From assembly GCA_012862575.1 (NCBI GenBank), contig BLSF01000082.1:62001-126000 (forward strand): DNA of 64,000 bases, in the 5' to 3' direction. The notes under the pieces were generated by a model. The model did not search any database. It was not told where the DNA came from and worked only from the letters and a program-made list of their open reading frames with translations. Numbering within the stretch: position 1 is the first letter of the stretch; every line of letters begins with the position of its first letter. Below are positions 7,127 to 28,312 of this stretch, in pieces. This stretch comes from Parietichytrium sp. I65-24A. Lineage: Eukaryota > Sar > Bigyra > Thraustochytrida > Thraustochytriidae. The translations under genes were made by a program, and so were the position numbers.

Positions 7127-7447
7127 GTCAATCAATGTTACCGGTACTCGAGTACCGGTATCGGTATGCCGGGGAGCGAGCAATTGTTTGTTCGGTTCGG
7201 CAGGTGCTGGGTGTGTGGTGAGTGTTCCCAGTTTCCAGTATTTTCCAGTGTTGGAAAAGATCAACTTGGCAAAAAAGATCAAAACTTGTAAGCAGAAAGA
7301 AAGTTTCACGCAAGTTGTAGTTACTTAGCCTAGAGTGTCGGGAATCCCAAAAACGCGATTCACACGCGGGTGCCAGTGGAGTGTCCAGCGCTGGTCCTCG
7401 TGAATCGCAAAGAAGCCGGGAAGCCGTCCCCACAGCTAGCGATCGCG

Positions 7448-10400
7448 ATGTGGTGGTGGTCCTCGTCCTCGTCCTCGCGGCGGTCGCGGACACGGTCCCA
7501 GTCGCGAGGACCCTCCCTCGCCGCGGAGCATGAGACGGACCAGGAAGCGTCTCCGTCCGCGGCGCAGTCCGCGGGGACCGAACCGTCCTCGCCCACACTT
7601 GCGCTGCTCAAAGTGGCCCGCGAGCGCACGAAAAGACTGCAGGCCGGTCGCGGCTTCGGACCCTCCAGCGAGTACCCCTCCGCCACGCACGCGCAGAACG
7701 CCGCGCATACGCATATGCAAATGCATGCGCATGCGCATCCCAGTTTTGCGAGTCACAATCTCGCTGGCAATGTGGGACACCTGTGGGCGAGCGCGCCGAA
7801 TACGCCCAAACTGGGGAGGAAGAGAGCGGAGATGGCGCAGCAGCACATGCAGCACACGCAGCAAATGCAAATGCAAATGCACATGCAAATTCCAATGCAC
7901 ATGCAAATGCAATCGCAATCGCAATCGCAATCGCAGCTGCAGACGCAGACGCAGACGCAAGGGTCGTCGCACATGCAACATGTGCAACATGCGCAACACG
8001 TGCAACATGTGCAGCAGATGCAACATGTGCAACAGATGCAGCAAATGCAGCAGCAGCAACTGACGGGGAACTCGCCCAGAGGCGCGGGACCGGGATCGCG
8101 GCGGCCGAAGACGGCGTTCTCCAAGCTGGTTTCGGATATGATCGCGTCGCTGGCGGAGGTGGCGCACGTGAAGGAGTGCCTGTCGCACTTTTTCGACGGG
8201 TTGGAAAGGGACGACACTTCCGGCGCGAGAGCGGCAGTGTCACGGGAGATGGTGAGACGGGGCCACAGCGCCAATATGTTCTGGTCGCAGCTTAGCTCGG
8301 TGTTGCTGTGTCTGCTGGACGCGGAGAAGCTCTTCATGAGCATGACGTTCCTGCGGGACGCGAATAAGAAGGCCAACATGATTGAAATGTTTCAGAAGGC
8401 CATCGCTGGCGTCAGGCAGCTAGTGGATGCACAAATCGTGGCGTGCAGCGAGCGGCCAACGCCCTCCAGGTCGAGAGGGCTCTCTCAAGGGCACTTTGCC
8501 GTCGACGAGACCTCGCACCACTCGATTGCATCCACCCCAGGCATATCCAGGATTAGCGTAGTAGGGGCAGACTCCGTAACCTCGGACGCGTACTCGTTCT
8601 TGCGGAAGAACGGCGGCCTGGAGACACCAAACAGCGCCCGGGCGCGGAATGTACTCACGACTGAAGACTCGGACGCGGACATGTTTAACTCTGCGTTTGC
8701 GTCGTACAGGCCCGAGTCGAGCACGCACGAGTTCATCGGAGACGACGATGATGATGATGAAGACGACGACGACGATGACGACGAGAACAGCGAGAGCTTC
8801 ATGAATACACATGGGGATGGACCGGACCCAGGGGCCTCGTTCGCGCGGTCGTATGCGGAAGTTGAGGAGGGTGAAGACGAAGGGGTGAGTGAAGATGGCG
8901 ACGACGACGATGAGGACCTTTTGTACGCATCAGCCTCCAATCTCACCAATCACGAGCGAGAACTCGTGAAAATTCCGCACCTTAAGGCGGCCATGGAGGA
9001 ATACGCCACCGTTTTCTCCAAGATGGTACAGCTCTTGAAACTTCGTCTGTGGACCGTTGAAGCCTACGTTCGCCTCGTGTCGACACAGTCTACAACCCTT
9101 GAGTCCATCAAGATACCCGAGCGCATTCAGTTTGGATTTGAGGAGCTGTTAGGGACCTGTGGCTACGCAATGCTCCAGAAAATCGTGGATCACGCATTTG
9201 CGGAGTTCAGCGCCGTCACCATGCTCGCCTACGCTAGGTACAACATATCGTCTTATCATTTGCAAGGGTCGTTTCTCACACTGCAGCGGGCGCAGGACAA
9301 GATTGACAACCTTGAAGGAGCACTGCGCGAAATGCAAGGTTGCCTCGATGTTGTGATGCCAAAGTCCGCTAGCCCAACGAAAAGAACTGCGCCGCGCAAA
9401 GAGGCCGAGGCAGCCAAAACGTCAACCAAAGTCGGGCCATTTCGTATGACAATCGGAGCCGCTCGAGGCAACAAGGCGGACGCTCCGCCGAAAGACCAGG
9501 CCAAGTCGCCCGCTGCTGCGAAAGAAGCGACGGAAAGTGCTGCGAAAATAGGCGAAATAAGCCACCGTTTTCTGTCGCTTTTCTTTGCGAGGAGGGCTTT
9601 CAACACCCTTACGGCCAAGGCAACCTTGTTCTTTTATCCCTCCCTTGGGTTACGATTCGAGCGCATCATTCCACAGGACGAAAACACTCGCAGGAAAAAA
9701 AAGCTTGTTATAATGATGCGCCAGTTTTTGAGCAAGCAGTCGCCTCGTGGTAGAATTGTGACGAAGAAATCCTCCAGTGTTTCAACGTCCTCACCATCGC
9801 TCTCAGCGGCCTCAAGTACAGTTACAAGTCCGCCAACGAGAGAGAACTCAGAAATACTCTCTGATCAGCTTGATCAACCAGACGTGGCATTCCTCCTTAT
9901 CCTTGATGCGGAGCAGTGCCAGAAATTCGGTCCTCCAAATCACCGGGGCTCTCTGCGGACTCCGCAAAAGTGGGACGACCAACGCTTCACTGGCAAAGGC
10001 GGACACATGCGAGCCCCACTCGGCCAGATGCCGCAACAATGGCAGCAGCAACAACAGCAGGAGGATGCTGCCGTCTCCATTGAGAAGACGAATCTTATCC
10101 TTCCTTCCGACTCTCCGAACGGGTACTTCTGCCCAAATCTGCTCTCCTTTGTACAGAAAGATGACAAGCTCAAACTTCGGTTTCAAAGCACGAAGCAGCT
10201 CCGATCCAATCTCGGACTCGCATCAACCAAAGGTGGGTATCTTCAGGACCGGCGAGTGATGCTCCGTTCGAGTGGCGAATCAGAAGACCCTTTCACACGT
10301 ACACCTAATTCTGAAAACCTCTTCCGCCCGCTTCGCGGCATCGCGTCCTGGCCGGTCATTTGCAAGTTCCCTTGGGACTTTCAAGAGGCTTTACACATGC

Positions 10401-10615
10401 CCAATCTCGTCTCTCTAATCATGGACAGCGTCTTCGATTGCGTATCCGCGCCTTACTTTGACTACGAGAAGCAGGTCTCCTATGTCGTTTATCAAATCGA
10501 CCCGACCGTTCACCTTGCCCTCGTATTCTCTCAGAACGCTCTTCCGAGCAACAATGACAAGAAGGAGATCATCGCCTTTTGCAACGCGATGAAGGAGGAG
10601 ATCACTCCTCGCTGA
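7448..10615 (+). CDS. KICS2 (KICSTOR subunit 2, C12orf66) homologue
   Basis: In animals KICS2 is part of KICSTOR, the lysosome-bound scaffold that recruits GATOR1 and lets amino-acid and glucose loss switch off TORC1. From residue about 230 onward the order of motifs follows the human protein: SHFFDGL...SREM, then DAEKLFMSMTFL (human AEKVYHSLTYL); HLKAAMEEY...YVRLVSTQ (human VEELLSHL...KMYTLSTQ); SSYHLQGSFLTLQRAQDKID; FNTLTAKATLFFY (human MKTLTAKANPDFF); and a final WP...PTVHLALVFSQ...IAFCNAMKEEI (human WP...PHFTIVIIFES...FISFLNEISLAL). At 1055 residues it is more than twice the human length. The extra comprises His/Met/Gln low-complexity (about 80-205), long Asp/Glu runs (about 430-500) and a Ser/Lys linker. 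The frame opens at GTG 7370; I use the first ATG, 7448. The alignment is from memory of the human sequence. An AATAAA lies 41 bp after the stop. Confidence 0.72.
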   Translation: MWWWSSSSSSRRSRTRSQSRGPSLAAEHETDQEASPSAAQSAGTEPSSPTLALLKVARERTKRLQAGRGFGPSSEYPSATHAQNAAHTHMQMHAHAHPSFASHNLAGNVGHLWASAPNTPKLGRKRAEMAQQHMQHTQQMQMQMHMQIPMHMQMQSQSQSQSQLQTQTQTQGSSHMQHVQHAQHVQHVQQMQHVQQMQQMQQQQLTGNSPRGAGPGSRRPKTAFSKLVSDMIASLAEVAHVKECLSHFFDGLERDDTSGARAAVSREMVRRGHSANMFWSQLSSVLLCLLDAEKLFMSMTFLRDANKKANMIEMFQKAIAGVRQLVDAQIVACSERPTPSRSRGLSQGHFAVDETSHHSIASTPGISRISVVGADSVTSDAYSFLRKNGGLETPNSARARNVLTTEDSDADMFNSAFASYRPESSTHEFIGDDDDDDEDDDDDDDENSESFMNTHGDGPDPGASFARSYAEVEEGEDEGVSEDGDDDDEDLLYASASNLTNHERELVKIPHLKAAMEEYATVFSKMVQLLKLRLWTVEAYVRLVSTQSTTLESIKIPERIQFGFEELLGTCGYAMLQKIVDHAFAEFSAVTMLAYARYNISSYHLQGSFLTLQRAQDKIDNLEGALREMQGCLDVVMPKSASPTKRTAPRKEAEAAKTSTKVGPFRMTIGAARGNKADAPPKDQAKSPAAAKEATESAAKIGEISHRFLSLFFARRAFNTLTAKATLFFYPSLGLRFERIIPQDENTRRKKKLVIMMRQFLSKQSPRGRIVTKKSSSVSTSSPSLSAASSTVTSPPTRENSEILSDQLDQPDVAFLLILDAEQCQKFGPPNHRGSLRTPQKWDDQRFTGKGGHMRAPLGQMPQQWQQQQQQEDAAVSIEKTNLILPSDSPNGYFCPNLLSFVQKDDKLKLRFQSTKQLRSNLGLASTKGGYLQDRRVMLRSSGESEDPFTRTPNSENLFRPLRGIASWPVICKFPWDFQEALHMPNLVSLIMDSVFDCVSAPYFDYEKQVSYVVYQIDPTVHLALVFSQNALPSNNDKKEIIAFCNAMKEEITPR
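7840..8062 (+). repeat. Low-complexity ATGCA/CAG-type repeats inside the KICS2-like gene
   Basis: Alternating ATGCAA, CAATCG, CAGACG and CAACATGTG units encode runs of Gln-Met, Gln-Ser, Gln-Thr and Gln-His-Val. Neighbouring units differ in type, showing several separate expansions. All are multiples of three, so the frame is kept. Confidence 0.9.
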
Positions 10616-11172
10616 TGAAAAAATCATTTGTCCAAGACCAACTCTGTCTATACATAATAAATCCCATGTTTACTATTGCACCCACCAAATACACACAACA
10701 CGCACGCACACATTCTCTCTCTCTCTCTCTTTACCAGCAAGGATGCCCACCTAATTCTCTTTCAGTGACAATTCCGCCGCGAAGAGAGGCACATGCATCT
10801 TTGAAATCCCTCCCTTCTCTCGCGACTGCCTCGCTTGCGAGTTTCTGTAGCTCCTACGCTTCCACTTAATGCAATCATTAATCATAGCCGTTTGGCTCTG
10901 TGGAAACTTGAAGTTGAACTTGCTATGAACAATACATTGCGTGTGATTTATCTGGGTTGTGGAGTTGGCAAAGTAGTCCAAGTTTGGCGCATAGCTGGCA
11001 AGAAATTGGCGGAGGCAAAGAGCTGGGCAGCAAAGCATTGCGAGCGCGCAAGAGTGTCATTTTGGAAGCGGCGATATTGCTGCCAGCCAGCTGTGGGAGC
11101 TTGAGCCCTGAGTGTGGTGATTTGCCGGACTTATGCGAGAGCTCGGGAGGTTGACTAAAGGTGCGCGGAACG
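10616..11172. other. Intergenic, KICS2-like gene to IQ/WW-like gene
   Basis: Holds the polyadenylation-like AATAAA at 10656-10661, a CT run at about 10713-10730 and the leader of the next gene. No gene is seen. Confidence 0.5.
10656..10661 (+). terminator. Possible polyadenylation signal
   Basis: AATAAA lies 41 bp downstream of the KICS2-like stop codon. Position and sequence fit; use is not shown. Confidence 0.45.
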
Positions 11173-12702
11173 ATGCCTGATGGCCGTGCCGCTCAGGCGT
11201 TCAGGGCCGCAGTGACGATCCAGAGCGCGATGAGGAGGTTTCTTATACGCAAGGCGATGCTGGAGTACGTCGTCGGGATCTTTGCGAGGTACTACGATGA
11301 GGCGGCGCAAATGGACTACTACGTGAATCTGGAAGCCATGGAGTCTGCATGGAGGAAGCCTTACATACTCAAGGGCGTCGAGCTGCCGTATTATGAGGAG
11401 TCTCGTGAAAGTGAGGAAAAGCAGCTATCTGAAGAGTTGGATGACATCCGCAATTACCCGAGTACGGAAAGCAAGGAGTCGACGCTCTCTATGAAGCGCC
11501 TCATGCGAGAGCCCAAGCCAACACCTGCTCCAGGCGCGCTGAACGCGGTCTTGGAAAGTTGGCGAAGCATAATGCCCAAAGAGGCTAATCCAAACGACGC
11601 TCAGTTGTGCCGGATAGACGTTTACACGTTCAGCTCTCCGCAGAGATGCGTCGTGCTGAGGGATAAAACAATAGAACAGGCCAAGCGCGAGATGCCGAGC
11701 ACGCACGAAACTCAGAGCGACGTTTGTGCGCTCACAATGTCGTTTTTTGCATTTGACGCTCAGGTGCCGAACGGGGTGAAGTACTCGGTTTGGTGGCGAT
11801 CAAACCCATTGAGATCCATGATAACTATGGAATGGAAGTCTCAACTTGCAGAACAAAGGAGCCGTGCGGAGAATAAGGAGTGCAAATCACCGTCCCTCGC
11901 GCAGGATGATGGGTGGGAATGGTGCTTTGATATTTGGGGCTTTTACTCTCCGCGCGAAGGAGCCATCCGTGTTAATGTCCAGAACGTCTTAAATCCGACC
12001 CGTTACAGGGTGTCTGAGCTCGGGGCTCTTCGCGGTGGATGGAGTCAATGTTTTTCATTCTTTGCTTACCCCACCTCAAGATTTGCGGCATTGGATGCTG
12101 CAAACTCGAGGACTGACCAAATGCGCGGCAAAATTCGCGAGATGCCTTTTGAAGAGGACGGTCGCTTGCATCCCCCTATTGAGGAATACGAGACCGACGG
12201 AGTCGAGGACCCCTCCGCAACGGTATGGTGCCGGCGGTTCGAGTTTATAGGTTTCAAGTCGCGCTTTACAGGGACAATCAAGTTTGAGATTTATTTCAAA
12301 TATCAGCTTCTTGATGGAGAAAAAGAGGAGAGCATTGCTGTCTACGAGCGAGAAAAAGTAATTTACTACCCGTGCTACAAGGTAGTCCAGGAAGGCGACG
12401 GGGACGTCAAGGATTGGTACTTGATGAGCAGCTTTTATGCCTTCCCCGTGCCGTTTCCTAAGACGACTCGTTATTATGTGCTGGTGGCGAGAACTCCCGG
12501 ACAGCTCACGCGGTACCGAATCGCGACGACAGATTTTATGGGGAAGGCGTGGAGCACGCTTTTTTCGTTTTACGCATTCTCCACTCGGACCGAGGATACC
12601 TTTCTGCTGGAACAGGACCACAATGACAATTATACTTTACGAAGGAATCGTGACAGAGAGGTAGGCCTAAACAGCGAGGCGCGAGAAGAGAAGACGAAGT
12701 GA
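11173..12702 (+). CDS. IQ and WW-like protein with four S-F-[FY]-A-[FY] repeats
   Basis: I do not recognise the family. Residues about 14-30 form an IQ calmodulin-binding motif (AVTIQSAMRRFLIRKAM). Residues about 38-65 look like a WW domain lacking its first Trp (YYDEAAQMDYYVN...SAWRKP). The rest contains four spaced units with the core [WV]xxxxSF[FY]A[FY] at about residues 184, 290, 415 and 460. These are followed by beta-strand-like stretches with Y-Y/W-x-V and RYR, suggesting a repeated beta fold. No signal peptide or membrane helix is seen. A calmodulin-regulated cytosolic or cytoskeletal role is possible but is inference. The frame opens at GTG 11161; ATG 11173 is the first Met. 509 residues; AATAAA at 12774-12779 is downstream. 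Confidence 0.8.
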   Translation: MPDGRAAQAFRAAVTIQSAMRRFLIRKAMLEYVVGIFARYYDEAAQMDYYVNLEAMESAWRKPYILKGVELPYYEESRESEEKQLSEELDDIRNYPSTESKESTLSMKRLMREPKPTPAPGALNAVLESWRSIMPKEANPNDAQLCRIDVYTFSSPQRCVVLRDKTIEQAKREMPSTHETQSDVCALTMSFFAFDAQVPNGVKYSVWWRSNPLRSMITMEWKSQLAEQRSRAENKECKSPSLAQDDGWEWCFDIWGFYSPREGAIRVNVQNVLNPTRYRVSELGALRGGWSQCFSFFAYPTSRFAALDAANSRTDQMRGKIREMPFEEDGRLHPPIEEYETDGVEDPSATVWCRRFEFIGFKSRFTGTIKFEIYFKYQLLDGEKEESIAVYEREKVIYYPCYKVVQEGDGDVKDWYLMSSFYAFPVPFPKTTRYYVLVARTPGQLTRYRIATTDFMGKAWSTLFSFYAFSTRTEDTFLLEQDHNDNYTLRRNRDREVGLNSEAREEKTK

Positions 12703-12773
12703 ATATTTTGACGGCAGTGTGTGACGGAGAAAAACAAAACAAAACAAAAACTCTAGTGAAAGAAACTCTGATA

Positions 12774-12779
12774 AATAAA
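12774..12779 (+). terminator. Possible polyadenylation signal
   Basis: AATAAA lies 72 bp after the IQ/WW-like stop codon, in the 215 bp gap between this gene and the convergent P450 gene. Confidence 0.4.
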
Positions 12780-12917
12780 AGTATTTCATGCGATGTTGCA
12801 CGGCTCCAGTTTAAAAGAACGCCTTTCATCGCTTGAAGACTGCACTGCGCACTGCAGGATGAAAAGTGACGTCACACCCCGGATATCCTTACGACAAGTG
12901 GTTCCCTTTGGTAAGCT

Positions 12918-14555
12918 TCACAACTTTGCATGTAGCTTTGTGCGAGGAGTGGCCGAGAAAAACATCCCGCCAGGAGCCCTTTTCCGGCCAGTGAATCCAC
13001 GGAAGGGAACATCCACGAGAGGGGGCTGCAGCAAGTCCCTCGGGCCAACTGTGCCGTAATTGACAGTAATGCCCTTCTCTTCTTCCGGGGAAAGTGCCTT
13101 GTATTCTGGAATCACGTCAAAAGTATACTTTCGCAACAGGTAGATGATAATGAGCCGAGCCTCGAGATGCGCAAAGTTCATGCCAATGCACCCACGGGGC
13201 GGGAAGGTGAATGGCGAGAAGCGGGGTGAAGCCGGGTTATACGCTGCATAACTCTGATTGTCCCAATTCTCCCCATCTCTAAACTCTCTGTTGGGGTTGA
13301 AAATATCAACATCCGCGCCCCACAGGTCGGGGTTTCTATGGCGCGACCAGTTGACGACTTGCACCCACGTCCCTTTGGGAAGAAGCACTTGTTCTCCCTT
13401 TTCTCCGGTGATGTACTCGTCGAATTGAATCTCGCGATAGGTACCGTTTGCAACAGCAGGCCACAATCGCAGTGTCTCCATGAAGCAGCGAGTGAGAAAT
13501 GGCAGTCTAGCCAAGTCCTCATAGACGGGGTCTCTGCCGTTCAGGTCAGCGAAAAACTGATCGATCTCCGCTTGCACTTGGCGCTGGTATTCTGGATGTT
13601 TTGACAATTCGTAGAGCAGCCAGGTGAGAGTATGGCCTGTGGTATCGTGTCCAGCGAACGCAAAGATAAGAGCATTCCCTTGAGTGGTGTAATGGTCGGC
13701 TTCCATGGAGGCCAGGCGGTTTGCCAGTGGGCCTTTGAACGGGCAGCCTTGCTCTTCCTCGGGAACTTCCGAGGGGTGCATTGGGCAGCTGTTCGACTCT
13801 CTCCCGAACCTCCCAGAGAGCTCCTTGCAGAATTCTCGGGAGTAGGTGACAGGGCCTTTTCCAGACATGGAATTCCTAAAAGCTGCATTAGTGCGCTCCA
13901 TGAACTCGTTGTCTTCGCCGAATAGCGCAAGCTGCAGTTGCGCCTCGGTTTCGAAGAGAAAAAAGTCGTTCATGTCCACGAGCTCATTGCCGTCCTTGGA
14001 CATCTCTTTGTAGCGCTCAGCGCAGAATTTGGCTCGATTTAGGCTGATCGGGAAAATTTTGGAAAGTGAAAGCTTTGGGAGAAACGCCGGCAGAAGGTGC
14101 GAGCGCTGCATTCGCCAGTGCTCATTGTCAACGGTGCTGATGATAGATCCGTAAAAGGCACTGTTGAAGTTTGGCTGCTTGCGTACATGCCTTCTCGCGA
14201 TTCGCTCAGCGTCATCTGGGTGTGCGATAATGACTTGCTGGATGCGAAGAGGCTTTCCGATTCTGCCGCTGTCTCCGTTCTCGCGCGGAAAGATGACCTT
14301 CGGCACGACGATGTTTGCAGCGAGCTTTTGCGCCCCTCCATACTTCACTTGCCACCTCTCGTACTGCAAGTGCGTTGCCCCGGCGAGCTCTGCTTTGGAC
14401 ACGATCTTGTACGCATCTTTCCAGCTCATCTCGCGCAGAGGGCCAGGCAAGTGCTCCGCGACATTGTACTCCCCTTCCTTCGGAAGCCTCGCAGGCAGGT
14501 CGTCCAAGCTTGGCCCTTTCACTCTCGCCGCCGTCTTTCTGCCGCTCTCCGCCAT
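12918..14555 (-). CDS. Cytochrome P450 with a C-terminal AKL tripeptide
   Basis: The protein is a P450 monooxygenase. The I-helix oxygen-activation motif AGHDTT is near residue 300, the K-helix ETLR follows, and the haem loop FTFPPRGCIG places the haem-ligand Cys at 456. Length (545) is normal. Two features are odd. First, there is no N-terminal membrane anchor: the N-terminus after ATG 14555 is polar and charged. Second, the protein ends H-A-K-L-stop, and AKL is an accepted variant of the peroxisomal PTS1 signal (consensus SKL). A loop at about 255-271 also has two Cys-Pro motifs (SCPMHP and GCPFKG), reminiscent of haem-regulatory motifs. Substrate is unknown. The frame opens at a GTG (14609) within a repeat; I use the first ATG. 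Confidence 0.93.
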   Translation of the reverse strand: MAESGRKTAARVKGPSLDDLPARLPKEGEYNVAEHLPGPLREMSWKDAYKIVSKAELAGATHLQYERWQVKYGGAQKLAANIVVPKVIFPRENGDSGRIGKPLRIQQVIIAHPDDAERIARRHVRKQPNFNSAFYGSIISTVDNEHWRMQRSHLLPAFLPKLSLSKIFPISLNRAKFCAERYKEMSKDGNELVDMNDFFLFETEAQLQLALFGEDNEFMERTNAAFRNSMSGKGPVTYSREFCKELSGRFGRESNSCPMHPSEVPEEEQGCPFKGPLANRLASMEADHYTTQGNALIFAFAGHDTTGHTLTWLLYELSKHPEYQRQVQAEIDQFFADLNGRDPVYEDLARLPFLTRCFMETLRLWPAVANGTYREIQFDEYITGEKGEQVLLPKGTWVQVVNWSRHRNPDLWGADVDIFNPNREFRDGENWDNQSYAAYNPASPRFSPFTFPPRGCIGMNFAHLEARLIIIYLLRKYTFDVIPEYKALSPEEEKGITVNYGTVGPRDLLQPPLVDVPFRGFTGRKRAPGGMFFSATPRTKLHAKL

Positions 14556-15628
14556 TCCGTCTTGCGATACCACGACACCACGATACCGCGATACCAGCCA
14601 AACCCACACTCAAGCAGCCGCTCGCACCGTCAGCCAACGCTTTGCAGCTATCAATCAAACAAAGCGACAAAGCAACAAAGCAGAGCCTTGTTCACGACTT
14701 GGAAGTCGGACTGTCTAAGCGCAGCTGCGAACAAATAGCTTTTAAGTGTAGAGCGAACGAACACCCATTAAACTACTTGCTCGTCTGACCGAACGCCTTC
14801 TAAGATGGGAAAAGCTTTCTGTTCCTCCAGGGAGATTCCTGTCAGTAGAACGCGAAGCAATAGCAATAGCAACAGCAACACAAAGAACACGGAGCTGGTT
14901 TGCTAATTCTGGTTGTTTTACACTAATGTAAAGTTGTTTCCGCTGCGTGTGCGTTACTGGAAGTGCCAGTCAAACGCGAGAGTCGCGAACGTTGGATTGC
15001 TTCTATTGCTTGTTTACCTCTTCGGTGCTGTCGTTCGTTCGCGCAAGCCACGGTTCAAGTTCAGTTACCGGTACTTCAATTTCACAGCGTTGCTTGGGTC
15101 ATTTCACTTATTTCACGCATGACTGAGTCTTCACATACTTCACATCATCAAGACGATCATCATCTGTTAGGTTTGTCAATGCGAAAAACTTATTTGTGGA
15201 AAGATAGATAGATAGGATGTCAATCACCCCTTGTCAAGGAACGGAATGACAGCAAGCGAAGCGAAGAGAGGAGAAGCCGGCGAGCGAACGAGCGGCGTGT
15301 AAACATGGGAGCACGAGGTCAAGCCTCACGAGAAGCTCTGCGGTGCAGGTCCGCGACGACTGGAGACGGTGTTTCTTCCAGTGGAGAGGAGAGTTAGAAA
15401 GAAGGAGTTGAGCGGAAGCCCGTGTTTTGTTCTTAAAATCTTTTTATTTCATTTCATTGCTTTCCTTGAACTTGAATTCACATGTCAAAGTCAATGCGCA
15501 TGAACTAATTTGCCGTTGCAAGAGTTGGAGTGCCACAGAACGGAGCAGCAGTGTTGAAGGCCAAAAGGTTAGGCAAGACTTCGATGCTGAGCTCTGCTGT
15601 TGAATGGTGTACGAAACCCGCACACGCC
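14556..15628. other. Intergenic upstream of P450
   Basis: About 1.07 kb. The P450 leader has short repeats (CCACGACACCACGATACCGCGATACC near 14568-14595 in pieces, and AGCAATAGCAATAGCAACAGCAAC near 14860-14880). One ACCGGT motif is at about 15066. Short open frames here lack any family signal. No gene is seen. Confidence 0.5.
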
Positions 15629-17032
15629 TTATGCGCGCCTTCGAGCAGCCGCACCTCTCCTGATCACGGCAAGTGAGATGTTGTTCTCGCTGAGCTGAAT
15701 CTTGGCCCGGTCGTTTACAGGGTGCAAAACCTGCTCTCTTATTTCCAGAGACCGTCTGAACAGCGCTTCCGCAGCAGCAAACTTCTTGCATTCCATAAAT
15801 AATAGCGCGAGATTGTCCAGACACAGTGCAATGTCTTCGTGCAAGGGGCCGAGATGCTTGTCAACAACAGCGAGTGCAGCGGACAACGAGGTTTGCGCTG
15901 CGGCGTAGTCCCCGACCGCCTTTTGGCCCCTTCCCAAGGCCAGGAGAGGGTACGCGAGCTGCGGATGCTCTGGGTCCCCCAACTCTTGTGTGATTAGACG
16001 AGCGAGAGACTGGAGCACCAAAATCTGCTCTTTGTAGTCAGCTTGAGCCTCCAAGACTAAAGCTAATTTTTCCAAAAGCTTGCGCCTCTGTGAGGTGCCT
16101 ACCCGGAAGTGGACCTTCTCCTCTTCAAAACGATTCGTGGAAGCATTGGAATAATCTGACGAGGAGTAGCCCAAAAGTTTTAAAGCTTTTTCGAGGCTCT
16201 CTTTCGCCAATGGCCAGTCGCGCTTCTTAATTGCGATGTTTGCTTTACCGGCAAGAGCTTTCCCCGCTCGCTCTCGAGATTCCGCAGCGTCCCCTGACTT
16301 CTCCTCGGCTTGATTGCCCCCCTGGAGGCTCTGCAAAGCGATGTCCACCGCACGTGCCTGGGCTTTGAGGGACAATTCAAGGTTCCCGCACTTTAGGTAC
16401 GCTGCTGCAAGCCTTTCCAAAGTAAGAACGAGGCCGGGGTGAGAGGTACCAAAGACGCGCTCCTTTTGCTCCAAAAGGCGCTCGCACACTTGCGGATCGT
16501 CTTGAGAAACTGTGTCTGGCAGATCATTCACTTCAGCAAGCCTCGCTTGTTCGGCTCGATGCCTCTCTATCTCCACTGCAAGCTCCCAAGGGCTTGTGTG
16601 ACACCCGATCACATTTGCAATACGATGGTGTCCAGCTGCGGTTGCAAGATCTTGCGCCAAAACGCCTGCGCCACACTTGAGCAATTTGTCGGCACCGCAT
16701 TCCAAGAGCACCTTTACAGTGTCCACCGAGTTTGCGGCGACCGCCAAATGAAGGACGGGTCGTTGACTCACAGCATCTACAAAGTTGGGGTCCAGCCCTT
16801 TCGACAATAAAAACCTCGCAAGCTCCGCCTTGCCCAATTTGCAGCTCAACACCAGCAGAGCCTCCCATTGCCGCGAGTCCTGCTCACCATACTTTCTCAT
16901 GCCATCCACGAGCTTTTCCAGCCTCGCCAGACTCCCTTCTTGCACGATCTTTTCAGGGCTCCATATCTCCTCATTGCTCGGATTCTTTCGCCATGAGACG
17001 CGGTCTGCTTTCGTGGTGCGAACCCTTCTCAT
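15629..17032 (-). CDS. Ankyrin and kinesin-light-chain-type TPR protein
   Basis: Residues about 55-145 carry two to three ankyrin repeats (ALLVLSCKLGKAELARFLL, then PVLHLAVAANSVDTVKVLL). From about 180 to 450 there are tetratricopeptide repeats of the 42-residue kinesin-light-chain type, each with HP-x-L/V...LA-x(2)Y/L...A...AL, for example SHPGLVLTLERLAAAYLKCG and EDIALCLDNLALLF. Both are protein-binding scaffolds. No enzyme domain, signal peptide or membrane helix is seen. The partner is unknown. ATG at 17032 is the natural start; 467 residues, no intron. Confidence 0.85.
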   Translation of the reverse strand: MRRVRTTKADRVSWRKNPSNEEIWSPEKIVQEGSLARLEKLVDGMRKYGEQDSRQWEALLVLSCKLGKAELARFLLSKGLDPNFVDAVSQRPVLHLAVAANSVDTVKVLLECGADKLLKCGAGVLAQDLATAAGHHRIANVIGCHTSPWELAVEIERHRAEQARLAEVNDLPDTVSQDDPQVCERLLEQKERVFGTSHPGLVLTLERLAAAYLKCGNLELSLKAQARAVDIALQSLQGGNQAEEKSGDAAESRERAGKALAGKANIAIKKRDWPLAKESLEKALKLLGYSSSDYSNASTNRFEEEKVHFRVGTSQRRKLLEKLALVLEAQADYKEQILVLQSLARLITQELGDPEHPQLAYPLLALGRGQKAVGDYAAAQTSLSAALAVVDKHLGPLHEDIALCLDNLALLFMECKKFAAAEALFRRSLEIREQVLHPVNDRAKIQLSENNISLAVIRRGAAARRRA

Positions 17033-19124
17033 CGCGAACGTCAGGCTCTCGCCGCTGGCATTTAGAAGCCCTCGCGGTCAGTGGAGAGCAGTCTCAGAGC
17101 AGGGAATTTGGACAACCTCTGACGGCCGCAGATTTGCGAAAATACTCTTCGAGCACTGGCTCACGGAAGATAATGACAGGTTCAGACTGGCCACGAGCCA
17201 AGCCAAAACCTTCAGCTGCTGTTTTTCAATGGTTTATTGGCAGAACAAAGCCCTCTGCTGCCGTGTTAGCCGCTTGAAAATAGAAAGACCCATTCGCTCT
17301 CGTCGTTATATGAGTCTCCAACTTGCCACTTGCGCAGACATGTGGTTCAAGTTCAACTTGAAAGTATCTCAAAGTTGCGCCGGGAATCGGATTCACCGGA
17401 TAAGTGACGTGCCCCTGGTAGTCTCTCGGTAGTTTCTCTTACTATTAGCTGAATGGGTAGGAAATGCTTAAGCGAATGTTCTTTAGTTCTTTCTTTGCTT
17501 CGTTTCATCTGCATCTAGTGCCGTACTGAGTACTCGTACCGACCACTTGAAAATTGCTCCACTCGAGCATTCCGCCTCAGTCTCACTCACTCACTCACTC
17601 ACATTCAACATAGAAATCAGAAAAGCTTCACGATTGCCCCTTTCATTTTGTCTTTTTAAGTGAAGCCACGAAGTGAGAGCGTAAACAAACCCTATCGGAA
17701 GGTGGGGTGTGTCTTTTTAGCTGCAGCAAAGTGAGAAACGTCTTTTTTGAGGTCTACTTTTTGAGATGAAATTATTCAAAATTCAAGTGATTGTGAGTGG
17801 CCAACTTCGCCACTGCACCCCTAGGACAGAACATAAATCACACATTCCTACAGTACTTGCAGTTCTACATTTCTATTTCACACTGTTCCTGGTTGTGTGT
17901 TGTGAGAACGTCATGGCAAAAATCACGTTGCCGAGAGATGAGGAGCGTTGCTTGGAAATGCTTTTCACACGAAACTTCTCACATAAACTTTTCACATGTC
18001 AAAGGATCCAACTCGTGCGGCTGATTTGAAGGCGACGATAAATTACCTATTTAGTAACAACGAAAGGCAAATTCCCAGCCAGAGGAGAGAAATAAAGCAA
18101 ACCTGTCTTTTAGAGGCGGCTCTATCCAATTTCTTCCTGAGCTGAGTTTTGCCGGGAATCGGTACAGTACTCGAGTACCATGTACAACGCGAAACAAAAA
18201 TTCGAAGAAACAAAAACAACACAGAGAGAGAGAAACATTGTGCTGAGTACTAGTACCGGTATAAGTGATACTGAGTACAAGATGGTGTACTAAGAGTGAG
18301 TACACACAAGCGCGACACAAAGTTCAAACACGTTTCCTGTTTCCGTAGATCTGCACAAAATTTGCCTCTGAGCTTGCACATGTCGGCCGCGCCACTCGTG
18401 CTCGTTCGATGGGCTCGTAGATTGGTCTGTCTATAGATAGATTTTCAATGAGTTTTTCAGTGGTCTATCACTATCGAGCGCCACGAGCGCCGGTGGAATA
18501 GCATATAGCACTGCTCTCGAACTGAGTTGGCTGTCACTATTGTTAGCCCTGCCAATGAAAGGTTCGCAGCAATCCAAACTGGAAGGAGAACCTGGAGCCA
18601 CGAGGCTCACGAGGTCACGAGTGCAGCGGAAACATAACCTTACTGGAAGGTAGCAGGTGTGAACGGATACTTGCTGAGCAAGCACGCGAGAGGAAGTGAG
18701 AGAGGAGAATTAATTGTAGACCCTAAAAAAGCATAAATAAAATCCATCGAGCGCTTGCTCCAGATTGGAGATGGGAGCACGAAGGCACGAATGTGTCCGT
18801 CTCAATGCTGTTGGAAGCACCACGCATCTGGACTGCCTGAGACAATCTTCTTTTTGGGTATTTGAACGACGACAACCGCCCCGTCTAAGGGCGACGCGCC
18901 TCGGCTTGAAACAACAGAGAGCAAGAATCATTTGCGTTCCCGCATTTCACCGCAGGCTTCATATATCTTATGCTTGAAGTGGATACGCGGGTCCTTGGGT
19001 CCTCACGCTTACCAAAGAGGTTATCCCTTGTTTGTTCCCCGCAGCGGAGAACCCCCGGAATATACTGTGATTCGAATAGCGCAAGGCAAGGGGTAACGTA
19101 ATCAGAGGTACGGAAAAGGCCAGT
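17033..19124. other. Intergenic, gene-poor
   Basis: About 2.1 kb without a gene I can support. It holds GTAC palindromes near 17521-17540, 18164-18180 and 18243-18275, a short TCAC array near 17580-17600 and a GA run near 18221-18233. A few open frames of 60 to 90 codons have no family signal. Confidence 0.5.
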
Positions 19125-19481
19125 TTAACATGGCTCGAATTGAACGCTCACTTCTGTTATTCCACGGACAACAGTGAAGTCCTTCCACACCCAAATTCGA
19201 CCATTGGTGATCAGTGCAACTAAACCAACTAATGCTCTCTCGTGGACTTCTTCCTCAATCCATTGATGAGATTCAACCCCGTTGCTACGGAGGCCGGTTG
19301 GGTTGGATTCCAAGGCCCTTTTGACTGTGTCGCCTCCCTGGACGAGTGGAGGCCAGGGCCCGGGCCTGGCCACGTTAATGATGACATGCTTATTCGAGCA
19401 CCACTCAGTAGAAAAAATTGTCGTCCACTCTTCTGCATGGCCTGCAACCACCAACGTCGAGAATAGTACAAAGATTCGCAT
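19125..19481 (-). CDS. Possible small secreted protein
   Basis: The 118-residue frame starts with a good signal peptide (MRIFVLFSTLVVAGHA, then EEWTT). The rest has two Cys (in EWCSNK and FEPC) and no domain I recognise. A second Met ten codons upstream would spoil the signal, so 19481 is the better start. It lies in a gene-poor stretch next to decayed-looking sequence, so it could be chance or a fragment. Confidence 0.35.
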   Translation of the reverse strand: MRIFVLFSTLVVAGHAEEWTTIFSTEWCSNKHVIINVARPGPWPPLVQGGDTVKRALESNPTGLRSNGVESHQWIEEEVHERALVGLVALITNGRIWVWKDFTVVRGITEVSVQFEPC

Positions 19482-20085
19482 CTTTTCCACGTTTGGAGTA
19501 TTCCGAAACAATTCGCACTCAACGCAGAGCTATTCGGTTCTTCTCAATTTGGGTTTTGAAGGACGGCAGGAACTGCCACCTTGTTGTTCAAGGCTGCCTT
19601 GAACTTAAATGCTCCAAACAATGGCCAAGACCTCGAAGACCACAAAATTTATTGTGCTCTCCGCCAAAGAAACAGACACAAATTTTCGATACAATCTCTT
19701 TCCGCGATCATCTTATTTTTATTATCAACTTGATTACTTCATTTTCACTCTCTATTGACTGCGTCGCAATTGGCCGTGATGCGCAGTTTCGAATAACTCA
19801 AGGCACTCACAACTGTCGCCAGTGCCGCCCGAGCCGGGTGCTTTCATTCGTTCAGCCATGTTCAGCCAGTACGAAACTTGAACTTGAACCATCTCGCTCA
19901 GAAAAGCGGCAAAGTCCACCCCATCGAGGGTCTCGTTAATGATGGCAGTCCCATCGTGAACTGTGATGTACGGCCAGTGGACGGAAGCCAGGGACCTCAT
20001 CTCTGTGCGACCTGCGGAAAGCGGAACCGAAGTGCTCGAGATAGGTTCTTTGGATAGAAACCATGCAGACATTTGTGGCTGCAGC
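19482..20085. other. Between the possible secreted protein and the Cys/His-rich frame
   Basis: A minus-strand frame (19752-20255) overlaps the end of the Cys/His-rich frame and looks coding-like (for example HWPYITVHDGTAIINETLDG) but has no recognised family. It may belong to the same unknown locus. Confidence 0.3.
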
Positions 20086-20715
20086 TCACCAATAGTAGTT
20101 CCCGTCCGCGAGCAAAACCAAAGTTCTCGTAATCCAAGGCCGTTCTGGCTCCGCAACGCCAGAAGCGCACAGAGCAGAGGGATGCTCCCAAGGTTTCTGC
20201 ACACGCTCCTCGTCGAAAGGAACCGTGCCAGTAAAACGCAGTCTTCCGAGGCCATTCAAATCAGGAAGGGGGCGAGTTTTGGAGGTTGCTGCAGCGACAC
20301 GCAACCCACATACACCACATCCATGCTTGGGGTAGTTTTGCTCATTCGCCATAAACTTGCTTAAGTTGTCCACACAAGCGCGCTGCTCCTCGTTCGAGAT
20401 TGGCTCCAGGATCGGAGGCTCAGAGCTGGACAAACCAAGCATCTCCAATGTCAACTGTTCAACTCTGGGCTGGGCGCACTCTCCGTTGTGGCATGAGCCG
20501 CAGTTGTGACATTTTTTTGGCCTGTTCAGACGGTGGTAGCCTTTGCAATGGCCGCATAACCGGTGTTTGCAGTGATTATTAAAGTGCCGAGAGTGCCGAT
20601 CAACAGGAGGTTCGATCCTGAGCGCGGCGAAGTCTAATCCGCGGCAATGTTGGCAAAAAGGATCTTCATTGACAGTGAGGACAACGCTGGCTGTGGAACG
20701 GAGCGTGAAGGTGCC
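20086..20715 (-). pseudogene. Cys/His-rich frame of unknown identity
   Basis: A 209-codon open frame on the minus strand reads DPFCQHC, then NNHCKHRLCGHCKGYHR, PKKCHNCGSCHNGEC, and further on HGCGVCGLRV. The spacing of CxxC pairs is that of a multi-zinc treble-clef or ribbon module. It recalls the CTCHY/CHY ubiquitin-ligase fingers, but I cannot assign it. The frame has no ATG before the Cys-rich part, and the sequence on both sides looks coding-like in other frames. Either this is an exon of an intron-bearing gene, unusual for this window, or a decayed gene. The neighbours give no clue. Confidence 0.35.
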
Positions 20716-22056
20716 TCAACATTCTCAACATCACCATTTGCCGTATACATTGTTAGCCGCGGCTCTTTGAACCCGTCGATACCGGTAGTGCGGACCATCA
20801 CCGGACCCTGGCGGTCCATAGGATCTCCACTATCTGCAGCTACCGGTATCGAGGAACAGAAGGAACATTGTGCACACGGCAGCAGAATTTGGACCACTCT
20901 TGCCGCAAGGGGGATGCGATTGACTGTAAGCTTATTGACAGTGAAAGGAGCTTTTGCGGGAAAGTACCACTCATAAGTAAGTATTTAGTACCGGTACCGT
21001 CAATTTGGCATGAACTAAACTTATTTCAGAACAGTTGACTGAATCGAAGATGAAAGGGGATGGCAATCAAACCAATCTCATCTTTTCTTTTACGATGCCA
21101 TGATTTCTAGCCACACCGCACACTGCGCGCACTTGTTCCTCGTCAGACTAGCTACTAGTGAATTGTGAACTTGGAGCAAAACGAGGAATCCATAGGTCTG
21201 ATTCTTTACAGAATTGTTAGTCAATCCACGTCAAGCCGGAGGTGTGCGTATCGTCTGAGTCAGGCACCGGCAGGATGATATCTAAATTCTGAGTTCTGAT
21301 GGCAGGTTTGTCAGGGTGCCAGATGTGCCAGATGAGTAAGCTTTTCTCGTTCATCATAGCACAAGAAAGTGAAAGTGAAAATGAACCGTTCCCGTTGCAA
21401 AACATCCCACTTAAAAGTAAAACGAAGCCATTCTCGTACAAACGAAAAACTGCTGACTTTGCTGACTCTCAGCTCCGGACTTCGCTTCCAAGCAAAATCT
21501 AAATCGTTTCCAAACGTTTTTCTAACAAGAGAGAAATGAGCCATTGATCTTGTTTCATTTGTTTCGTTTCTCGTACCATCAAATTCTGAACTGTTCTCTA
21601 CGCTGTCTCGCAAAAAATTCGTTCTTACACATTTCCATAATTGAGTGCGCTACCATCGCTCAATGTGTGCACCCTATACATTCTCTTATCTCTCCATAAA
21701 CAGAACTAGCACTCGGTACAGCGAGTGCACACCATCTCTACCCCACTCATATGTTAAATGCTAAGGCCACAACTCCGCCTCACAAGCTCTGGTCGCACCA
21801 AGCACAGCTTTACTCCATCCCTACCACTAACTCTAGCACTGCGCGGGACTTGTAATCAAACGCCCCCATCTCTACCGCCTCCTTACTATCTACCCTACCA
21901 TCCCGCTCCCACTCGAGGTGTGCCGGGACCCTAGCCACCTCCTAACCAACACGACTAGCCCAACCCTCCAGTCGTAGCTTCCGCTACCGCAAACAGTAAG
22001 CCACATCGCTGAGTTTACTAGTACTGAGGCGAGTGGGCGGAACTTGTGACTTAGAG

Positions 22057-22060
<4 letters not shown>

Positions 22061-22090
<30 letters not shown>
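22061..22090. repeat. (AG)15 microsatellite
   Basis: Uninterrupted AG run about 240 bp before the ABCG start, followed by imperfect repeats of ACAAACAGACACATAACTT at about 22095-22140. Confidence 0.95.
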
Positions 22091-22092
<2 letters not shown>

Positions 22093-22220
22093 CACATAAC
22101 TTCTATACAAACAGACACATAACTTATATACACAAACAGACACGTCTGCCTCACACGAGAGTACGCAGCGCGTACCATTACATACGTGCGTGCGGTAGTG
22201 TGTGGTAGTGCGATCCCGCA

Positions 22221-22285
22221 GGAAGGAAGGAAGGAAGGATCGGGAGGTGTCATATTGTGACAGTGTGACAGTGTGACAGTGTGAT
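22221..22285. repeat. GGAA array and GTGACA(GT) array in the ABCG leader
   Basis: GGAA is repeated about four and a half times at 22221-22239. An 8-bp unit (TGTGACAG) is repeated at about 22257-22285. Both are within 115 bp of the ATG. Confidence 0.9.
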
Positions 22286-22332
22286 AGGTTGACAGGGGAG
22301 AAGGGTGCATTAGCGCGAGCAAGTCTCGTAAA

Positions 22333-25300
22333 ATGGGTTGGCGCGTGGTGGCCGCGATATGCGCGATGCTGGGCGCGCATGGAGCGGTTGGAGACTGCGT
22401 GGAAAAGTCGCAGATGCAGTACCACACGGTGGAAACGGTGTCGAATGTGTCACAGAGATTCTGCATGGACGGGTCGAAGCCGGGGTACTTTATCGATGAG
22501 ACGACGTACAGCGGGGCTGCCAACCCGAATTTCTTGATCTGGCTTGGGGATTCGGAGCTGTGCGAGTCGGAATTGGAGTGCAAACGGTACTGCCTGTCTA
22601 CTTGCGATCAGGATGCGAGCAAAGGGATTAATGCGGACAACTATGACTGCTTTAAAAATGAGCTCGAGTGCTCGTCCGAACTGTGGCAGCACCTCGACAC
22701 GAAGGCTGATTCGCTCCTCTGCAGGGACGAAGACTCGCCGTTTAGGGACTATGTCCGTGTGTACGTGCCTTCGTGCACTCTGGACTGGTTCCTAGGTCGC
22801 GGAGGAGGCGGAAGTGCGCTGATCTTTCTCGGCGCAAATGTGTTGGACGGAGTAGTGGAAGCCCTCTTGGCCAATCACGGGCTGGGAAGCTCAAGCCAAA
22901 TTGTGCTGGGCGGCACACGCGGCGGTGGCATTGGTGCTGCCAACAGTGTGAGGCGCCTTACGAGCAAGATCCGTCTCGCGTCTTCTGTGGCCACGCAGGA
23001 AGTTCTGTTGATCACAGACAGCTCATTCTTGACAAGAAACGAGCAGTTTGGCGTCGACGACTTTTCCGACTTGTCCAAAACCTACAAGGTTGACGCGGCA
23101 CTGAAAGCAAACTCGTCTACTTGGGCTCCGCAAGCCGCGTTTGATGAGGGCTGCACAGCTGTGTACAGCACTCGGACGAGCCTTTACAAGTGCCTGTATC
23201 TGCAAAATGTTCTAAGTTCATCCGAGTTTCAGGAACAAAAGAGTCTCATAATTCAGTCCCAGTTTGACTTGAGCCAGCTCTCTCGACTCAACATTGACAG
23301 CGATGATATTCGCAACAGCTACTCGGATGAGTCTGCATACTTTCAAGCTGTGTCCAGCTTTATTCGAGCTCTAGGAATTTCCCAGCGCGAAGCGTATAAA
23401 GACGTGCTTGACTACTCGGTTGTAACCGGCACGCTCACTCACAACACTCACCTCTTCACCCCTGCCTGTGGTCAGGTTGGTCTACTCGTCCCTCTCGCAG
23501 CCGACGTAAGGGAGACCGAGAAGATTGAATTCGGAAAGGCTGGCGCGATCAATATCCAGCGCCAAGGGGACACTTGGGAAACAATTAGTGCAGGCGACTC
23601 GAGCCTTTTGAAAGTTGTGCAAGCATTCATAACCGACCCTTCCTCTTTGGAGGGTCATTATACTGACGATTGCATTGATTTTATCTGCAATCCAACTTGC
23701 CCAAGCACGATTTCCTCGTTTGTCTTGGATGACAAGACCGACTCGTGTCAACAGACCACTGTAGTTGTCTACTCGATACTCTTCATCGCAGTCTTCTTCG
23801 TCATGTTTGCACTGACGCTGATTCGCGTTATCATCTTTAGAGCGCAGTGCCGAAGGTTTTGGCAGTCTTCCAGCGCTAGGGTTGACAACGCCGGCGACAA
23901 AATTGTCGAAGCCGCCGCTGCGCTCACGAAGGGCCGATCACTTCAGATCATGGTAGAGAACCTCAACTACTGGGCTCCGAAAAAGAACCGCAAGGTTGAG
24001 GAGCCTGTTCAAATCCTCAAAAACGTGTCGCTCGCGTTCCAGCCGGGTTGTGTCTCTGCGCTGATGGGCCCCTCTGGAAGCGGCAAGTCTACTTTGTTGG
24101 ATATCATCTCAAACAGCCGAGAATCTGGCAGGGTCACTGGCACTCACTACATCAACGGCGTTCCATCCCACCTTTCCCGGGCGGCGTTTCTCCGTGAATG
24201 GCTCCGCAACTCGGTGTCTTACGTGCGCCAGCAAGATTTGCTATTTCCGAACCTGACTGTCAGGCAGCATCTGGAGCATGCTGCGTGGCTTATGCTTCCC
24301 CAGTTTATGCCGTCTTCGAAGAAACTCGAGCGTGTGAGCCAAGTCATCCAGCTACTCGAACTCGGAAGTTGCGCTGACACAATTTGCGGAGATGGAGGAG
24401 TTCGGATCGAGGGAGGCATCTCTGGTGGTCAGAGGCGCCGCGTTTCCATCGCGACCCAGCTTCTCAAGATGCCCACTGCCCTCATTCTGGACGAGCCCAC
24501 TTCTGGGTTAGATTCTACCAACGCGCTCTTGTTGGTGGAGTGTCTCAAGAATTTGGCGAAAAAGGGTGGAATTACCGTCATCATGACGATCCACCAGCCT
24601 CGCAGTGAAATCTTTCGGCTGCTCGATTCTCTTGCGATTCTTGTGAGGGGCAAGGTCGTGTTTTGTGGCTCGCCTTTGGAGGCGGCAAACACCTTTCAAG
24701 TGGATGTCAACGAGGCGAACGTGGGAGATGAGATCTTGGACAAGTTGCAGGGCTCAAAGCCAGAGGTGGTGGACAGGTACCGCCACAGTTACCAGAACGG
24801 ACCGTTCGGGCAAGCAATCGTGAGAACCATTTCGGAGAGTCGGTCGGAGCTTACTTCCTCCATGGCGACCGCGCTGCGTTCTGTACTCGTGGAGAACTCG
24901 CTGGCTGAGGGACGGTGGAGCTGGACTGAGGCGACCAGCACGATTACCACTATGTGGGTGCTCATGAGCCGTGTGATGCTTCGCGGTGGCTTTGACTTGC
25001 AGCGAACCATTCCATTTTCTTTGGTCGGTGGTGTTTTGGTCGGCTTGGTGTTTCTCCAAAATCAGAACTACACCTCGCAGACTGCGTTGGCTTACCTTGG
25101 CGTGAGCACGATGACGTTCTTGCAATCCACATTTCTTGGTGACCGCTACAACGCAGAAAAGCAAATGTGGACTCATGAGCGAGACAACGGAACCAACATC
25201 AGCTGGCTCGCATTCTTGCTATGCTTGTTCATCCGCAACATGGTTACCTCCACGCTGGAGGGGGTTGTGTTCGCGGTTCCAATTTATTTTATGGGCAAGA

Positions 25301-26760: not shown

Positions 26761-27640
26761 ATTGCGTTGCATTTGGCACTTGCTCTTGGAGCTAGCTAAC
26801 AAGGTCTGGTATGGTGTTCTTGTGTACCGGTATGTGTGTCGCTGCTGGCGGACTTTTGTGTGTTGTGGATTATGTGGTTGGTCCTCAAGCAAGATACATG
26901 ATGTGGTGCCAACTTTGTGTTGGCTAGACAAGGGCATTTGTTTTATTTAAAAAAAGACCAATCTTCTTTCATATGTGTTTTACGATCGATGTTTTACCTT
27001 CGAAGACGACAAATGTACTACTACGCATACTGGTACGTGTCCACTCACTGTCAGTACTACATTGTGCACTGCGCGAGTAGACTAGGAGCGGTGATGGGCG
27101 TTCCTATAGCACGAACGGGAAGTTGGTGAGCTGAGAAACGCTTTCTCTTGGCAAGATGAGTGGGTGAGGAGGGTGTGGAGGGTGAGGATTGGAAAAAGGA
27201 AATGGAGGAGTCAAGGAGGATGATGGTTTTTTTAGGTTTGACGGCCTTTGACTTGTGTACAAGGAATGAATAGGGAGTGAGCGGAATGGAGAAACCAAAA
27301 ACAGGAAAATAAGTTTGTTCTTTGATCGACATTTTCTTTTGGAATGAGAGTGTTGCGGGGCGTGTTTTGAGGTTTTTGGGTGTGGTAGTTGTGTAGTATA
27401 TATATAATTGGGACGGAAAGCTGCCGTGCTCTCGTGGCCCCAACCAGAGCAAAGCTGGCTCAAGCAAATCGAAAGAGCCCGAATGTTTTCCCTCCGCAAC
27501 GCGTTTCATAAGATTGATTGTAAATAGATAAAAAGAGGCGCGCAATTTGGCCTCTCACTCTTGTTGGTTTTTGAATACATGTATTCCGTCAGATCAAGAA
27601 AGAGGTTGAACTTTGGGCGAAGAATCCTACCAATGGTCGG
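26761..27640. other. Intergenic, ABCG to zinc-finger-like gene (convergent)
   Basis: 880 bp between convergent stops. One ACCGGT is at about 26826. A minus-strand frame at 27057-27545 is Lys/Ser/Pro-rich low-information sequence and is not called. No gene is seen. Confidence 0.5.
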
Positions 27641-28312
27641 TTAGTAGTGCATCCCACAGCACATGTACGACGCATTTTGCATGGAGCTTCCGGAGCAGTT
27701 GCAGTAGTTTCCCGCGCCGTACGAAGCTTCATACATGTCCTCATTCGCCCGCTGTTGTTGTTGCTGTTGGTGATGATTGTGTTGATGATGTTCCATCTGC
27801 GACCGCTCCTGCCCGCAGGTATTCGAAGCGCGCTTCTGGAAGTCAAAGCCGTTTGTGTGAAAGTTGCCATTGTTGTTTGCTGCGCAGTCGTTGCTTCCAT
27901 ATCCCGACTGAGGGCTCCCAAACCCTTCAGTGGGTTCCATGGTCGTCATGTCCGCGTCCGCGTCGGTCATTTCAGACGCAGCGGACCTGAACGACTGTTT
28001 CTTGCTCGGGACAGGAGCCATTCCGTCTCCCCAGCCATCCGTGACGTCGTCCCTCGATCTTCTTTTCAAAACGTTCTCCGGCGGCGGCTCCAGCGTGCCC
28101 GTTTTGGACAGTCCTGAGATGGCGCAGATTCTCCATCCGTCATTCCTGAACACCCACCTAATACATGTCGCATCGCACGTGTGGTATTCCCCATCTTCGC
28201 TCTGATACAGGTTACCCACCACCTGTCTCCACCGCCGGTGTTGCCGTGCCACGTTCGCGTGTCGCGGGTCCAACGTCTGCAGCACGAACTGGTTCCACTC
28301 TTGCCTGTGCAT
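27641..28312 (-). CDS. Small zinc-finger-like protein with Gln/His-rich tail
   Basis: The 223-residue protein has an N-terminal basic helix-rich part with W-x-Q-V-V-G-N-L-Y, then a compact Cys motif HTCDATCIRW...WRICAISGL (residues about 44-70). This H-x-C-x3-C...C-x2-S-G arrangement resembles small zinc-binding modules in protist and large-virus proteins, but I cannot name the family. The remainder is disordered with an acidic/Met patch (MTDADADMTTME), a His/Gln run and a Cys-rich end (CNCSG, MCCGMHY). No signal peptide or membrane helix. A nucleic-acid-binding role is possible but not shown. ATG at 28312. Confidence 0.65.
   Translation of the reverse strand: MHRQEWNQFVLQTLDPRHANVARQHRRWRQVVGNLYQSEDGEYHTCDATCIRWVFRNDGWRICAISGLSKTGTLEPPPENVLKRRSRDDVTDGWGDGMAPVPSKKQSFRSAASEMTDADADMTTMEPTEGFGSPQSGYGSNDCAANNNGNFHTNGFDFQKRASNTCGQERSQMEHHQHNHHQQQQQQRANEDMYEASYGAGNYCNCSGSSMQNASYMCCGMHY

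Follow-up and report, generated by a model that had tools for sequence, protein, structure and literature searches.

In human cells, GATOR1 is tethered to the lysosome by the KICSTOR complex and inactivates RagA there; the KICSTOR subunits are described as two pairs, KICS2 with SZT2 and ITFG2 with KPTN (PMC11836306 and PMC8534245; here and below, statements on published work refer to excerpts of the cited sources). Human KICSTOR mutations have been associated with epilepsy and malformations of the brain (PMC8534245). A 2021 review calls the complex mammalian-specific and absent from non-vertebrates, yet grants a SZT2 homologue in C. elegans (PMC8534245); in a 2024 research paper, it is a partner of GATOR1 specific to vertebrates (PMC10957897). 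SZT2 is described as highly conserved evolutionarily, most vertebrates having an orthologue (PMC8534408); KICSTOR is said to be not readily identifiable in yeast (PMC5618229), and a 2026 paper describes flies as lacking it (PMC13370336). A 2025 study reported KICSTOR in non-Dikarya fungi; its outgroups were five early-branching opisthokonts, with Dictyostelium in that role for the species tree (PMC11836306). No published report of full KICSTOR outside opisthokonts was found, in a search that left most subscription papers uncovered, and databases may list such proteins without comment. This study concerns a stretch of 64,000 nucleotides (the window; positions 62001–126000 of contig C82 in a genome assembly of 42.5 Mb and 172 contigs) and a gene within it, at window positions 7448–10615, whose predicted product is a divergent but credible homologue of KICS2 (C12orf66).

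Results

The gene is a single uninterrupted open reading frame (ORF) on the + strand that runs from an ATG at 7448 to a stop codon ending at 10615 and encodes 1055 residues with no internal stops, as proposed in the initial annotation. Scanned against Pfam, the whole protein matched one family at E ≤ 1, PF09404 (C12orf66_like; 20.1 bits, E 2.8e-4), in two stretches, the better of which placed residues 963–1049 on positions 336–422 of the 439-position profile. An insert-free version of 494 residues was assembled from six conserved blocks (residues 220–334, 501–637, 698–762, 800–830, 876–920, and 955–1055). This version scored 32.5 bits against PF09404 (E 4.9e-8), above the curated cut-off, with a best stretch covering profile positions 6–273 and a second stretch in addition; the only other Pfam families were two at E 0.1 and 0.14. 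The value of 4.9e-8 is somewhat optimistic, because the blocks were cut by hand after the match of the whole protein was known, whereas the value of 2.8e-4 for the uncut protein is not. The N-terminal part and the C-terminal domain were also collinear with the profile when searched alone (residues 220–334 on positions 5–70, E 0.016; residues 953–1055 on positions 336–423, E 2.2e-4), and the blocks keep the same order in the alignment with human KICS2. In the PDB, KICSTOR subunit 2 (human KICS2) was the first match of the insert-free protein, a weak one at E 0.011 and 0.012, followed by haemoglobin (E 0.092) and sc-apCC-8 (E 1.3).

In direct comparison with human KICS2, the insert-free protein aligned globally with a score of 68, whereas 1000 within-block shuffles averaged 9.9 (SD 5.2, z = 11.3) and none of them reached 68. 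In a score-optimised global alignment, 98 of the 410 aligned residues (~24%) are identical. When human KICS2 was used as a phmmer query with filters off, the gene ranked first (E 0.0021) among 888 six-frame ORFs drawn from the window and the genome loci, and the top two entries both belong to it. BLASTP of the C-terminal 103 residues found 20 of 88 positions identical to human KICS2 (E 4e-7 for that single comparison). The assignment to KICS2 made in the initial annotation is supported by the PF09404 matches of both versions of the protein, by the PDB match, by the first rank among the 888 ORFs, by the shared TLTAKA block described below, and by the shuffle control of the global alignment.

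Several results count against this assignment. The whole protein falls short of the curated PF09404 cut-off (20.1 vs. 22 bits) and has no PDB match at E ≤ 1, and neither the piece 698–1055 nor the middle block (residues 501–637) matched PF09404 when searched alone; the latter matched only RhiE_B (E 0.015), below that family's cut-off. Local alignment of the insert-free protein with human KICS2 was less decisive than the global one (73 vs. 38.2, SD 5.8, z = 6.0), with 1 of 1000 shuffles reaching the score. The phmmer search of the 888 ORFs with human KICS2 gave no match under default filters, and a PF09404 scan of the whole genome gave none either, this gene included. Single-sequence AlphaFold2 models were of low confidence, with a mean predicted local distance difference test score of 34.3 for residues 695–1055 and 48.8 for residues 950–1055. 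Of the 506 Foldseek matches of the better model at E ≤ 10, none reached E ≤ 0.001. KICSTOR or KICS2 entries stood at ranks 2, 5, and 20 of that list (E 0.29–0.63, non-significant), a GATOR1-Gtr entry at rank 3, and a Raptor-Rag entry at rank 12; these ranks are no evidence, because their E-values are 0.29 and above and an unrelated entry stands first.

The motifs named in the initial annotation (DAEKLFMSMTFL, the FNTLTAKA block, and the C-terminal segment with WP) were borne out by human counterparts, with an ambiguity of register in the second. In the alignment, DAEKLFMSMTFL (residue 291) lies opposite human AAEKVYHSLTYL (residue 63), and WPVICKFP (residue 968) opposite human YPAVVSLP (residue 346). 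FNTLTAKA begins at residue 718, and TLTAKA (residue 720; human 288–293) is the only six-letter word common to the two whole proteins; when human KICS2 was shuffled 2000 times, 47 of the shuffled versions had some six-letter word in common with the window protein. The best ungapped local alignment places TLTAKA on TLTAKA (score 37 over 32 residues), and the rival register, on human NMLLAKF (263–269), scores 31 ungapped and 33 with a gap. The global alignment favours the NMLLAKF register, as do the end points of the PF09404 stretch (judged from the end points alone). Two end-free alignments (26 vs. 13) had suggested that the shared TLTAKA was a coincidence, a reading rejected in view of the local alignment. 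The FNTLTAKA block belongs to the KICS2 family in either of these competing registers.

At 1055 vs. 445 residues, the protein is 2.4 times as long as human KICS2. The initial annotation attributed a more than doubled length to Gln/Met/His and Asp/Glu runs, and an entropy scan located both: residues 126–209 (Gln/Met/His; 7823–8074, +) form the low-complexity core of an N-terminal extension of ~219 residues, and residues 422–461 (Asp/Glu; 8711–8830, +) the core of an acidic insert, with more linkers elsewhere. Between these two lies block A, the N-terminal conserved part that carries DAEKLFMSMTFL (residues 220–334; 8105–8449, +) and faces human KICS2 17–75. The acidic insert separates block A from block B (residues 501–637; 8948–9358, +), which lies inside the best PF09404 stretch of the insert-free protein. 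That stretch ends in block C (residues 698–762; 9539–9733, +), which contains FNTLTAKA and matches human 267–298 without gaps or, in the rival register, 253–277. Block D (residues 800–830; 9845–9937, +), with the hydrophobic segment DVAFLLILDAEQ, is placed by the global alignment only, and block E (residues 876–920; 10073–10207, +) is weakly placed, mostly opposite gaps. The C-terminal domain (residues 955–1055; 10310–10612, +) is the best conserved part. The low-complexity segments before and between the conserved blocks would most simply be tails or loops.

A search of the same genome for the GATOR1 subunits, suggested in the initial annotation, found all three, each over its profile cut-off: NPRL2 (E 7.6e-58), DEPDC5/IML1 (E 1.6e-50), and NPRL3 (E 3.8e-31). 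The same three profiles had no match in 14 control genomes. ITFG2 was identified on contig C36 by matches to PF15907 at E 1.2e-24 (over the cut-off) and 1.7e-5, and the only PDB matches of its 606-residue frame at E ≤ 10 were two ITFG2 sequences (E 1.7e-28 and 2.8e-28). The human KPTN query had one genome match, on contig C18 (E 5.1e-22, 33%), in a 734-residue kaptin frame with a Ser-rich insert; the best PDB matches of this frame were three kaptin sequences (E 6.7e-23 to 7.9e-23), followed by an aldolase at E 0.77.

The fourth KICSTOR subunit was sought by a codon pattern for V-x-T-D-G-V, which matched the genome 10 times and its backward control 23 times and so was not enriched. One of the 10 matches (contig C47, position 22914) falls in an SZT2-like frame of 4043 codons at 21819–33947, with 4015 residues from its first ATG (3432 in human SZT2); the other nine were inspected, were not SZT2-like, and none came top of the 888-ORF set. 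The C-terminal 3315 residues of the candidate had a single PDB match at E ≤ 1, to SZT2 (25ge_C, E 2.2e-5), in two collinear stretches. In its N-terminal part, the candidate came first of the 888 ORFs in likeness to SZT2 when filters were off (two overlapping pieces of this one gene, at E 0.023 and 0.031), with 4.4 bits elsewhere. This N-terminal likeness is not independent evidence, because the frame was chosen by that motif; the C-terminal PDB match is independent. Against the candidate, human SZT2 1–716 and ~735–1358 found no match as genome queries, its N-terminal 1032 residues had no PDB match at E ≤ 10, and two full-length human SZT2 chains in the same PDB library were not among the matches of the C-terminal part, perhaps as a result of HMMER filters that weigh target length. 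Neither part of the candidate matched Pfam at E ≤ 0.1, and human SZT2 1–716 has no Pfam match either. The frame is probably SZT2. The initial annotation had suggested that KICS2 might occur here without the other KICSTOR members; with ITFG2, kaptin, and a probable SZT2 encoded, this suggestion is not supported, and the genome probably encodes a complete KICSTOR gene set together with GATOR1.

Low-complexity sequence is shared by most of these frames. It amounts to 124 residues in the KICS2-like frame, 107 in kaptin, 147 in the SZT2 candidate, 128 in the part of DEPDC5 that was examined, and 104 in NPRL3; ITFG2, NPRL2, and EF-1alpha have none. The inserts therefore look like a genome-wide habit rather than a device specific to KICS2, and, because the kaptin, SZT2, DEPDC5, and NPRL3 frames carry them too, no explanation specific to KICS2 is needed.

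An insertion in EF-1alpha marks opisthokonts. The best EF-1alpha of the genome (77% to human) reads PWYKGPYLLEALDQ at the site of this insertion in the human query, and the insertion is absent. Together with uninterrupted frames of more than 2,000 codons, this indicates that the genome is probably that of an intron-poor protist, neither animal nor fungus. The initial annotation placed the KICS2 homologue outside animals; it is probably outside both animals and fungi. The description of KICSTOR as metazoan, repeated in the annotation, is outdated given the report from non-Dikarya fungi (PMC11836306).

Further features were recorded in the window and genome. The window contains 14 copies of the palindrome TACCGGTA, starting at 7139, at 7153, and at 12 sites between 15066 and 62856, compared with 7 of the next commonest 8-base palindrome. 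All 14 copies fall outside the 14 frames, each of 250 residues or more, that were taken as genes and make up 51.9% of the window. The copies at 7139 and 7153 form a perfect 22-base palindrome (7139–7160) ending 288 bases before the ATG of the KICS2-like gene, and GTACCGGTA has 16 matches in the window, counting both strands, against 0.03 expected. Among 17 counted genome loci, mostly coding and partly overlapping, the palindrome motif is present in three (the window's own pair in L001, and one copy each in L031 and L033) and absent from 14; TACCGGTA and GTACCGGTA are a possible regulatory motif. In the window, a 1475-residue frame at 22333–26757 (+) combines a pectinacetylesterase-like domain with an ABC transporter that has an ABC2 membrane part. 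Two neighbouring frames at 34339–35844 (−) and 38030–39553 (−) are fascin/FRG1-like (beta-trefoil), perhaps through duplication, and a 513-residue frame at 11161–12699 (+) has no Pfam match at E ≤ 0.001 and contains recurrent SFFAYP/SFYAF-like segments. No tRNA was found in the window, nor any Rfam family at gathering score. In the genome, the 13 matches to the polyunsaturated fatty acid synthase model TIGR02813 were all partial and stayed below the cut-off, which lends no support to a thraustochytrid identity of the organism. A 5583-residue uninterrupted frame on contig C66 of the assembly (G000:C66, ~8562–22499; loci L011–L014 and L017) carries four such matches at model positions ~176–516 and three near model position 2100, and we infer a resemblance to a giant modular polyketide synthase.

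Discussion

The gene in the window probably represents the KICS2 subunit of an ancient KICSTOR-GATOR1 tether, a reading drawn from sequence comparison and the company of its partner genes. By analogy with the human complex, the KICS2-like protein would join SZT2, and ITFG2 would pair with kaptin. The resulting assembly would anchor GATOR1 (DEPDC5-NPRL2-NPRL3) to the lysosome or vacuole, where GATOR1, as GTPase-activating protein of RagA, would switch TORC1 off when nutrients are short. That these proteins form one complex, where it resides, and how it acts on TORC1 are all extrapolated here from the human system.

Of the alternatives, the one that survives best is that a KICS2-family protein has left KICSTOR and been recruited to another task, its inserts being the mark of a functional novelty. 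The strong divergence from human KICS2 (98 of 410 residues identical in the score-optimised global alignment) and the additions that make the protein more than twice as long would fit such a change of role. It is nonetheless improbable, since the same genome retains ITFG2, kaptin, a probable SZT2, and GATOR1, and the low-complexity stretches recur in the kaptin, SZT2, DEPDC5, and NPRL3 frames. Less probable still, with only a very small chance of being correct, is the absence of any homology to KICS2, with a helical protein of odd composition resembling it by accident. The failure of the uncut protein to reach the Pfam cut-off speaks for chance, as does the position of haemoglobin (E 0.092) close after KICS2 (E 0.011) in the PDB list of the insert-free protein. 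Chance would, however, also have to account for two collinear PF09404 stretches (E 4.9e-8 in the insert-free protein), a global alignment above all 1000 block shuffles, the shared TLTAKA block, and the partner proteins in the same genome. Least likely of all is that the KICSTOR genes came from an animal or fungus, as contamination or by horizontal transfer. On the side of this reading, no relatives were found in the viral or prokaryotic collections (0 of 600 matched stretches confirmed in viral_contigs and 0 of 594 in genome_contigs, in weak scans with four of six search words of low complexity). On the other side, the four genes lie on four contigs of 153 to 644 kb (C82, C36, C18, and C47) in uninterrupted frames, have a third-position GC content of 0.557–0.668 (0.668 in the KICS2-like frame and 0.557–0.661 in seven other examined frames of the same genome, with EF-1alpha at 0.661 and the GATOR1 frames at 0.573–0.617), and are deeply diverged from their human counterparts (kaptin 33%).

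As a subunit of an ancient KICSTOR-GATOR1 tether, the gene would be a new member of a known family, and it bears on the age of the complex rather than on its mechanism. The nutrient switch provided by KICSTOR is probably far older than the vertebrates often credited with it. If four likely KICSTOR orthologues and GATOR1 do occur together in a probable non-opisthokont, the switch would have originated before opisthokonts, and the absence of KICSTOR from yeasts and flies would become a matter of losses. On balance, we somewhat favour this account, in which vertebrates fitted their SAMTOR-type sensors to a tether that was already ancient, and the sensors did not originate together with a new one. 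The proteins would also provide a distant comparison for finding the essential surfaces of KICS2 and SZT2.

Among described systems, yeast SEACIT (Iml1-Npr2-Npr3) has the same GATOR1 core as this genome; yeast lacks KICSTOR, according to excerpts of two papers (PMC8534245 and PMC7828246), in contrast to the probable KICSTOR gene set of the genome studied here. The KICSTOR of non-Dikarya fungi is closer, with components outside animals and GATOR1 in the same kingdom (PMC11836306, excerpted). Those fungi are opisthokonts, whereas the EF-1alpha of the organism studied here lacks the opisthokont insertion; this comparison is one of descriptions rather than sequences. Human KICS2 (C12orf66; PDB 2gnx, 25gf_D, and 9o5a_F) differs from the window protein in that the latter is 2.4 times longer, through its N-terminal extension of ~219 residues and its inserts, with ~24% identity over 410 aligned residues. 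The two proteins nevertheless present their conserved blocks in the same order and have in common the N-terminal AEK...S.T.L segment, the TLTAKA block, and a C-terminal domain with a WP/YP start and H.PN.

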